64,000 nucleotides of DNA, taken from Xanthobacteraceae bacterium. Lineage in GTDB: Bacteria > Pseudomonadota > Alphaproteobacteria > Rhizobiales > Xanthobacteraceae. The stretch lies in NCBI GenBank assembly GCA_029266425.1, contig JAQSWY010000013.1, positions 1 to 64,000 on the forward strand, given 5' to 3'. Positions 602 to 1,603 of the stretch are shown here, one piece after another (positions within the stretch are counted from its first letter, which is position 1; each line of letters opens with the position of its first letter). A model generated the notes under the pieces. The model was given only the letters and a program-made list of their open reading frames with translations, did not search any database and was not told where the DNA came from. The position numbers and the translations under genes are program-made.

Positions 602-1603
602 ATGCGCACGTCTCGCAAACTTACTTTGATACTGGGGGTGGCCGTCTATGCCGTTGCCCCGCTCGCAATTGCCACAAAATCGCTGGGGCAAACGACCACG
701 CGAGGCTGGGCTCAGAACGAATGCCGGGTGGTGGCTCCCTATAATTACTGGGTCTGCGACCCCTGGGTGACCGACAGCAAGGGTCCCAAGGATAAGGCAT
801 TCTCCACGACCAACCGTGGCAACAACGGCAATAACGGCAACAACGGCAACAACGGCAACAACGGGAATAACGGCAACAACGGCAACAACGGAAACAACGG
901 CAACAACGGAAACAACGGGAACAACGGCAACAACGGCAACAACGGCAACAACGGCAACAACGGCAACAACGGCAACAACGGCAACAACGGGAATAACGGC
1001 AATAACGGCAACAACGGCAACAACGGCAACAACGGGAACAACGGGAATAACGGCAACAACGGCAATAACGGCAACAACGGCAACAACGGCAACAACGGCA
1101 ACAACGGCAACAACGGGAATAACGGGAATAACGGCAACAACGGGAACAACGGCAACAACGGCAACAACGGCAATAACGGCAATAACGGCAACAACGGCAA
1201 CAACGGCAATAACGGCAATAACGGGAACAACGGCAACAACGGAAACAACGGCAACAACGGCAACAACGGGAACAACGGCAACAACGGCAACAACGGCAAC
1301 AACGGCAACAACGGCAATAACGGCAATAACGGGAACAACGGCAACAACGGCAACAACGGAAACAACGGCAACAACGGGAACAACGGCAACAACGGCAACA
1401 ACGGGAATAACGGCAACAACGGCAACAACGGCAACAACGGGAATAACGGCAATAACGGCAATAACGGCAACAACGGGAACAACGGCAACAACGGCAACAA
1501 CGGGAATAACGGCAACAACGGGAATAACGGCAACAACGGCAACAACGGCAACAACGGGAATAACGGCAACAACGGGAATAACGGCAACAACGGAAATCGT
1601 TGA
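602..1603 (+). CDS. Exported GNN-repeat protein, function unknown
   Basis: 333 residues. Residues 1-30 are a basic and hydrophobic signal peptide. Residues 31-72 form a short head with two cysteines (Cys41, Cys52) around an aromatic patch, PYNYW. Residues 73-330 are 86 uninterrupted Gly-Asn-Asn triplets, and the protein ends in Gly-Asn-Arg. GAGAGGAGG about 6 bases upstream of the ATG supports the start, and a strong terminator follows at 1627, so it is probably monocistronic. The repeat varies only at silent positions (GGC/GGG/GGA for Gly, AAT/AAC for the first Asn), which indicates selection on the amino-acid sequence. No known family is recognised. Asn/Gly-rich tracts occur in surface, adhesive and ice-binding proteins, but nothing here decides between these. 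Tract length probably varies between strains. Confidence 0.8.
   Translation: MRTSRKLTLILGVAVYAVAPLAIATKSLGQTTTRGWAQNECRVVAPYNYWVCDPWVTDSKGPKDKAFSTTNRGNNGNNGNNGNNGNNGNNGNNGNNGNNGNNGNNGNNGNNGNNGNNGNNGNNGNNGNNGNNGNNGNNGNNGNNGNNGNNGNNGNNGNNGNNGNNGNNGNNGNNGNNGNNGNNGNNGNNGNNGNNGNNGNNGNNGNNGNNGNNGNNGNNGNNGNNGNNGNNGNNGNNGNNGNNGNNGNNGNNGNNGNNGNNGNNGNNGNNGNNGNNGNNGNNGNNGNNGNNGNNGNNGNNGNNGNNGNNGNNGNNGNNGNNGNNGNNGNNGNR
818..1591 (+). repeat. 9-bp tandem repeat array, 86 units
   Basis: Direct tandem repeats with core GGCAACAAC, about 774 bp, fully inside the coding region of the GNN protein. Units differ only in the third base of the Gly codon and of the first Asn codon; the second Asn codon is always AAC in the units read. 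Because the unit is a multiple of three, gain or loss of units keeps the frame. The array lacks stops in five of six frames, which creates long artefactual antisense frames. Confidence 0.95.

Follow-up and report, generated by a model that had tools for sequence, protein, structure and literature searches.

A candidate two-gene insertion in a Xanthobacteraceae bacterium may encode an exported, collagen-like Gly-Asn-Asn protein and an ICMT-like membrane partner

The first supported gene in the DNA analysed here (the window: 64,000 nucleotides, positions 1 to 64,000 of contig JAQSWY010000013.1 of the Xanthobacteraceae assembly GCA_029266425.1) encodes a protein made largely of a single triplet, Gly-Asn-Asn (GNN). 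What kind of protein is this, and how did its gene come to lie at this place? The original prediction, made from the DNA letters, described a signal peptide, a two-cysteine head and 86 perfect GNN triplets. This description is exact by open reading frame (ORF), by sequence and by TRF, which reports a period of 9 and 86.2 copies. The features of the locus are as follows.

1–99, no strand: end of contig C29, identical to an end of contig C34 (100% over 99 bases)
1–1765, no strand: window half of the putative insertion, from blastn against L128 and L187; homology to genome G022 starts at 1766
300–560, no strand: AT-rich part (31% GC) of the predicted 614-bp intergenic region between the divergent ICMT-like and GNN genes
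590–595, + strand: Shine-Dalgarno AGGAGG, a six-base match six bases 5' of the ATG
602–1603, + strand: coding sequence of the GNN protein, ATG start, 333 aa
602–673, + strand: probable Sec signal peptide, with predicted cleavage after AIA (residue 24) or nearer residue 30
674–817, + strand: mature head with Cys41 and Cys52; AlphaFold2 strands at 41–44 and 49–52, low confidence
818–1591, + strand: 86 GNN triplets, residues 73–330 (258 residues), from sequence and TRF
1592–1600, + strand: C-terminal GNR, followed by the stop codon
1627–1656, + strand: intrinsic terminator, 10-bp stem (1627–1650) and T run
1895–2506, + strand: flanking L,D-transpeptidase gene (YkuD), outside the insertion and marking its edge

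The N-terminus is signal-peptide-like, being positive in a crude hydropathy test, and the protein sequence contains no LPXTG motif. The tract consists of G and N only, with no charge, hydrophobe or proline. The gene was also predicted to have its own strong terminator, which is borne out: the 10-bp stem and T run fold with a z of -3.2, and 1 of 200 shuffles was equally good. This call is based on the strength of the stem and not on the number of sites, as 3 terminator-like sites were found in 1–3000 versus 5.4 in shuffles, a count that is itself uninformative. The + strand of 1–3000 showed no consensus promoter, and Rfam gave no match in 1–2600. ORFs also run across the tract on the opposite strand and in another frame because of its 9-base period; the long opposite-strand ORF has no family match.

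All differences among the 86 units are silent, as predicted, with no frameshift, stop or replacement. The array contains five unit types: GGCAACAAC (52 copies), GGCAATAAC (11), GGGAATAAC (11), GGGAACAAC (8) and GGAAACAAC (4). The second Asn codon of the unit is AAC in 86/86, whereas the first is AAT in 22/86 (Fisher p = 1e-7), and GGG is linked to AAT within units (p = 0.0007). Elsewhere in the window, Asn before G is encoded by AAT in 48 of 99 cases (36 other ORFs taken as genes). Because independent silent mutation would strike both Asn codons alike, the pattern suggests that a few founder units were multiplied and shuffled. Unit-type autocorrelation of the tract revealed no longer repeat period. 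Silent-only variation is a weaker sign of amino-acid selection than it appears: the chance that all substitutions are silent is 0.006–0.017 when three kinds are counted, compared with a naive figure of 1e-33. The case for selection rests on about three independent substitutions, or on none if these predate the expansion. The selection originally proposed is thus moderately supported, and the silence of the variation carries less of the argument. As a general property of GNN tracts, the GGG-AAT linkage was rejected (Mantel-Haenszel odds ratio 1.27; 34 informative among the 115 tracts listed).

Exact repeats within the tract reach 62 bases at most, less than the 99-base overlap of the contig ends. 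An assembly with a 99-base word size could therefore resolve the copy number, and the assembled number of 86 is plausible. Two tracts of an Alphaproteobacteria MAG, Co_bin.209 (L116 and L046), lie at contig ends and contain only unit types of the window, with AAT only after GGG and the second Asn always AAC. Read by eye, they are possibly two ends of one gene that ends in a subtilase-like domain. Constancy of AAC at the second Asn is common to L116, L046 and L086, and is not found in L103.

An exact search of one genome per GTDB species identified GNN tracts of eight or more units in at least 115 stretches of other genomes, some of them from the same genome and two (L022 and L061) being halves of one tract split at a tile border. 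Among the matches listed, the longest tract per stretch ranges up to 244 units (median 10), and 86 units would rank second; 17 tracts come to within 12 bases of a locus end, 15 of these at contig ends by contig ranges, and lengths there are lower bounds. The loci listed include Paenibacillus, Bacteriovoracaceae, Poribacteria, Legionella, Psychrobacter and Alphaproteobacteria, and six stretches of viral contigs carry six or more units. By a crude rule, 56 of 83 GNN ORFs that include their 5' end, among the matches listed, look exported, versus 107 of 390 other ORFs in the same loci (p = 1.5e-11). The commonest Pfam matches in 75 of the 83 (ORFs up to 1100 aa, less one copy) were to Collagen (39), FecR (6), N_methyl (5), SLH (4), and fn3, Pilin and Cadherin (3 each). 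One GNN carrier resembles the cytosolic factor SelB. On one MAG contig, two copies of a 78-residue frame with GNN x13 lie about 28 kb apart (L048 and L088).

The longest tract, in Bacillus dakarensis (L103), shares with the window protein its triplet and exported look and is longer (x244); 234 of its 244 consecutive units are the same 9 bases, and its silent sites are far more uniform than those of the window. Unlike the window tract, it is an internal linker, placed by eye before a 5'-nucleotidase-like domain, and its 8-kb locus has no ICMT-like match.

The original prediction knew of no named family with this architecture. That view holds for the head and needs qualification for the tract, given the GNN tracts elsewhere, the pure one-triplet bacterial collagens described in extracts from the literature, and a score far above the Pfam Collagen cut-off. 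Pfam Collagen (PF01391) matches the protein at 148 bits (cut-off 27.2, E = 4.6e-44), and what it matches is the glycine period. Glycine occupies every third residue across all 86 triplets, as in collagen, and stabilising proline or charged residues are missing from the tract, as they are from the (GAS)n of Bucl8. Alignments to solved collagens matched little beyond the glycine period, and a ‘spindlefibril’ PDB match was set aside as mainly that period. The Scl1, Scl2 and Lcl adhesins share the Gly-X-Y period and give partial HMM matches, all below the NCBIfam cut-offs: 190.6 of 325 bits for Scl2, 119.1 of 400 for Scl1 and 137 of 500 for Lcl. A fourth match, HxsA4, is likewise below its cut-off. 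By period and score, the protein may be loosely filed with the bacterial collagen-like proteins; it would be neither Scl nor Lcl. Collagen matches occur in 254 of 391 genomes of the family. These ordinary collagens were rejected as the source of the tract, as a GNN run of three or more was found in 0 of 30 fetched loci in any frame. Among L127–L156, searched on both strands over whole loci, such a run occurs only in the locus studied here.

The closest published parallels are the pure one-triplet Burkholderia collagens, Bucl8 with (GAS)n and Bucl1 with (GAN)n. As described in extracts from PMC4565658 and PMC7682875, these are proline-free Gly-X-Y tracts like that of the window, their repeat number varies, with 6–38 GAS or 7–22 GAN compared with 86 GNN here, and CD of the Bucl8 extracellular part showed a triple-helix signal. 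Bucl8, according to the same extracts, carries efflux-pump domains, whereas the window protein has its tract at the C-terminus and a head for which the searches made showed no relation. In extracts from PMC11685636, ‘GNN repeats’ appear once in a collagen-like context, as an alignment example.

In contrast to the tract, the head has no relatives in PDB, Pfam, NCBIfam or PHROGs, nor in GTDB contigs, plasmids, phages or viral contigs. None was found in 29 other genomes of the genus, where the GNN gene was likewise not found. Nothing convincing was found in 390 other family genomes (four weak matches, E = 0.003–0.009, read as chance) or in 396 other order genomes (one weak match, E = 0.002, from a genome that also gave one of the four). 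The AlphaFold2 strands of the head have pLDDT of about 53–63 and contain one cysteine each; the head may be a disulphide-closed hairpin in this model. No trimerisation domain was recognised in the protein, and the tract, modelled as a single chain, has pLDDT of 30–37 and no confident structure.

How did this gene enter the genome? L,D-transpeptidase relatives occur in 30 of 30 genus genomes searched, including our own, and the most similar (93%) is that of G022. Window positions 1766–3985 are 87% identical to G022, in which dhaK lies upstream of the L,D-transpeptidase gene; the two genes adjoin in 2 of 29 relatives' loci (L128 and L134). Our genome's dhaK is on contig C34, is 95% identical to that of G022, and marks the end of homology between C34 and G022 (C34 position 1735). 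In G022 the two homologous blocks are separated by 37 bases. From the contig-end overlap and this synteny we infer that C29 and C34 are linked, and the lineage probably carries a 3.4-kb insertion between dhaK and the L,D-transpeptidase gene (estimated length 3,400 bp). Its supported genes are two, the GNN gene and a divergent gene for a protein similar to isoprenylcysteine methyltransferase (ICMT), 614 bp apart. The second, carried by C34 with dhaK, was beyond the view of the original prediction. The shorter ORFs of the insert, ORF 47–337 among them, belong to no convincing family where tested. With no plasmid match for 1–1765 and no convincing family for ORF 47–337, a mobile element was rejected. 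The AT-rich intergenic region contains a perfect 12-bp inverted repeat (331–342/347–358) with a 4-base loop, perhaps an operator or the end of an element.

The ICMT-like protein has 449 aa, with six separate hydrophobic regions and, at its C-terminus, an ICMT-like domain. His-Pro-x-Tyr (HPxY) is the methyl-donor motif of the ICMT family. H351, P352 and Y354 are invariant in nine of nine ICMT-like sequences and a Glu pair is present in eight; as the motif is kept in all nine, methyl transfer by the partner is plausible. The motif, the Glu pair and weak Pfam matches are common to ICMT, PEMT and DUF1295 methyltransferases, from which the partner and its homologues differ in length (about 380–470 aa) and in extra N-terminal hydrophobic regions. 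Scores against Pfam PF04140 (gathering threshold 24) are 23.7 for our copy, 24.6 for L027, 28.1 for L195, 24.8 for L198 and 19.9 for L197. The NCBIfam isoprenylcysteine model does not match our copy and three others tested were far below its cut-off; a profile of the protein found no solved structure. The protein is rare: a single-sequence search matched 1 of 332 other genomes of the family, and profile searches matched 5 of 213 other genomes of the order and 7 of 203 other genomes of the phylum, the draws partly overlapping.

Searching 121 listed GNN loci (115 genome, 6 viral) with the partner by tblastn gave one strong match, in a Rhizobiaceae MAG (L027), where about 0.007 such matches would be expected by chance in the 115 genome loci; a further match at E = 0.04 was set aside. 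The L027 protein is 53% identical to ours over 411 residues, and the two are sisters in the tree (support 100/100). Its ORF starts at 6347, 7 bases beyond the stop of the GNN gene at 6340. The window head shows no detectable likeness to the L027 GNN protein (5042–6340), which matches BA14K at its C-terminus (Pfam, 3e-8) and whose tract is followed by basic regions.

We then asked if the ICMT-like gene recurs beside repeat proteins, using 20 loci retrieved by the ICMT-like protein alone (7 of 66 plasmid-collection records and 13 genome loci, one of these from the single-sequence family search). A locus passed if an ORF within 2.5 kb had a signal-like start and a 40-residue stretch that was 85% or more G/N/S/T/A/D and 20% or more Gly; this rule was written after several loci had been inspected and was not blind. 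Seven of 20 passed (L195, L197, L200, L201, L215, L217 and L227), and in all seven the repeat ORF is on the same strand, upstream of the ICMT-like gene. L195 and L201 (Burkholderia) encode lipoproteins with (TSG)x88 and (SSGT)x37 (Pfam Collagen_mid, 4e-52 and 2e-52), L197 (Roseinatronobacter) has (TSG)x23, L200 (Neorhizobium) a G/S tract with an S74 chaperone domain, L215 Ser/Gly repeats, L217 mixed GN/GNN repeats and L227 Ser tracts. The 13 that failed are L196, L198, L199, L216 and L218–L226; L198 and L199 carry ORFs, Ser-rich and Gly/Ser-rich respectively, that did not pass, and L225 has no upstream sequence.

Controls passed in 1 of 48 tiles (0/20 from ten of the genomes, 1/28 from seven plasmid-collection records), in 0 of 29 relatives' L,D-transpeptidase loci and in 0 of 11 window tiles. 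For 7/20 versus 1/48 the Fisher p is 0.0005, and it is 0.0009 with near copies merged (6/17, L198–L200 counted as one positive). Plasmid records alone give 4/7 versus 1/28 (p = 0.003) and genome loci alone 3/13 versus 0/20 (p = 0.052). The single control match (L252:12977–14563) is a further collagen-like lipoprotein of (TSG) type from the same B. multivorans record; its Collagen_mid part is 39% identical, and the 30 kb fetched around it contain no ICMT-like gene. Enlarging the control set made the association stronger, whereas this match and the weaker genome-only figure pull in the opposite direction. On the tree, the repeat-neighbour label requires 4 changes, and 5 of 500 shuffles are as low, with L198 and L199 counted as carriers. 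Collagen_mid (PF15984) matches occur in nine plasmid-collection records. The four from Burkholderia have an ICMT-like match downstream, start-to-start within 1.8 kb; among the five others, four loci (Cupriavidus/Caballeronia) were fetched at the best-matching place, and none was found nearby. The Burkholderia lipoproteins of L195 and L201 resemble the window in having exported-looking tandem repeats directly beside an ICMT-like homologue, and differ in being lipoproteins by sequence, in their repeats and in a conserved domain after the tract. The ICMT-like homologue is a recurrent, not obligate, neighbour of exported-looking Gly-rich tandem-repeat proteins.

Other neighbours were observed at some of these loci. 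On Rhizobium and Neorhizobium plasmids (L198–L200), the ICMT-like gene lies 3' of a Gly/Ser- or Ser-rich lipoprotein ORF and a caspase-family gene, and the lipoprotein ORFs of L198 and L200 contain an S74 chaperone domain. In Sinorhizobium fredii (L196) it is downstream of a prepilin-peptidase-like ORF, as read by eye. Isoaspartate repair was rejected as a general role of the ICMT-like protein, as GTS tracts contain no Asn. Lipid-anchor modification is not a common rule either, because only some of the repeat proteins are lipoproteins by sequence.

Could the tract be a selfish minisatellite, a by-product of slippage in a hydrophilic linker that is tolerated as exported and disordered, and functionless? 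The few founder units, the orphan head of a gene not found in the other genus genomes, the low pLDDT of the tract and the rise of GNN in unrelated proteins across phyla are what such an origin predicts. It sits less well with 86 units free of frameshift, stop and replacement, with a strong ribosome-binding site and terminator, and with the recurrence of the insertion's other gene beside repeat proteins; we regard it as unlikely, though to be taken seriously. An assembly artefact or a contaminant at the contig end is very improbable. The bin has 7.5% contamination, and GC is lower in 1–1603 than beyond, at a contig end; against this, the window is 87% identical to G022 in 1766–3985, both contig ends fit the dhaK/L,D-transpeptidase junction, and no exact repeat in the tract exceeds 62 bases.

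The remaining alternatives concern the conformation of the tail. In host-guest values Asn ranks low in collagen and is worst in the Y place, and the helix bundles of snow flea antifreeze protein and Obg have the period Gly-X-X. Three GNN chains wound into a genuine collagen-type triple helix would account for glycine at every third place over 258 residues and for the Pfam Collagen match. Such a helix is nevertheless quite unlikely for a tract with no proline or charge, little matched beyond the glycine period in solved-collagen alignments, no recognised trimerisation domain and a low host-guest rank of Asn. In extracts from PMC7682875, proline-free (GAS)n does give a triple-helix CD signal at 25 °C, weaker than that of perfect GPP repeats. 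A polyglycine II/polyproline II helix bundle like that of the snow flea protein, possibly ice- or water-structuring, has its precedent in the Gly-rich bundles of snow flea antifreeze proteins and Obg (extracts from PMC8409303). By the same extracts, the snow-flea type has an Ala-rich face and inter-helix turns, whereas the window tract has no Ala, no turn positions and no break in 86 triplets; together with the lack of a confident AlphaFold2 model, this makes the bundle very unlikely here.

Based on these observations, we favour an exported one-triplet (GNN) collagen-like surface or matrix protein, acquired in a two-gene insertion with a membrane partner, a reading we consider probable, if by no great measure. 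The exported surface or matrix polymer of the original prediction is likewise reasonable from sequence, the signal-like start having been called by a crude rule. The GNN gene would have entered the lineage in the 3.4-kb insertion, divergent from the gene of an ICMT-like membrane methyltransferase homologue. Its product would be exported by Sec. Independent folding is likely for the small head alone, perhaps with a disulphide closing it, whereas the 258-residue uncharged, very hydrophilic tail would be presented on the surface or within the matrix and serve as spacer, coat or adhesive. The ICMT-like homologue would most likely act on the repeat proteins or their envelope attachment; that it acts on the GNN protein itself we put at about one chance in three.

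Asn-Gly is the fastest-deamidating pair. It occurs once per GNN unit, giving 86 sites, so the tail should turn acidic with age unless it is structured. Extracts from PMC4682632 give half-lives of the order of days for Asn-Gly deamidation. Once displayed, an 86-site tail might convert itself from uncharged to strongly acidic over days, acting as a chemical timer. More tentatively, and rather doubtful as a whole, these loci may represent a hitherto unrecognised Pseudomonadota envelope system in which an exported low-complexity Gly-X-Y protein with a freely exchangeable triplet (GNN, GTS, or G/S and G/N mixes) is produced with, and during or after export modified by, a dedicated ICMT-like membrane methyltransferase, the window holding its purest form and the Asn-Gly timer.

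New here are the length of the pure tract for a protein of this kind, its orphan head and, chiefly, the two-gene context. In print the pair is no more than a candidate novelty: the word ‘methyltransferase’ is absent from the main text of PMC4565658 and PMC8968730, and a pairing of collagen-like and ICMT proteins lay outside the reach of the literature search. A recurrent methyltransferase-like membrane neighbour would provide a handle on the modification, export or anchoring of low-complexity collagen-like proteins, and would allow such proteins to be found without relying on the repeat. A natural chain of 86 GNN units would also be a clean test of Gly-X-Y folding without proline or charge, and of deamidation at scale.
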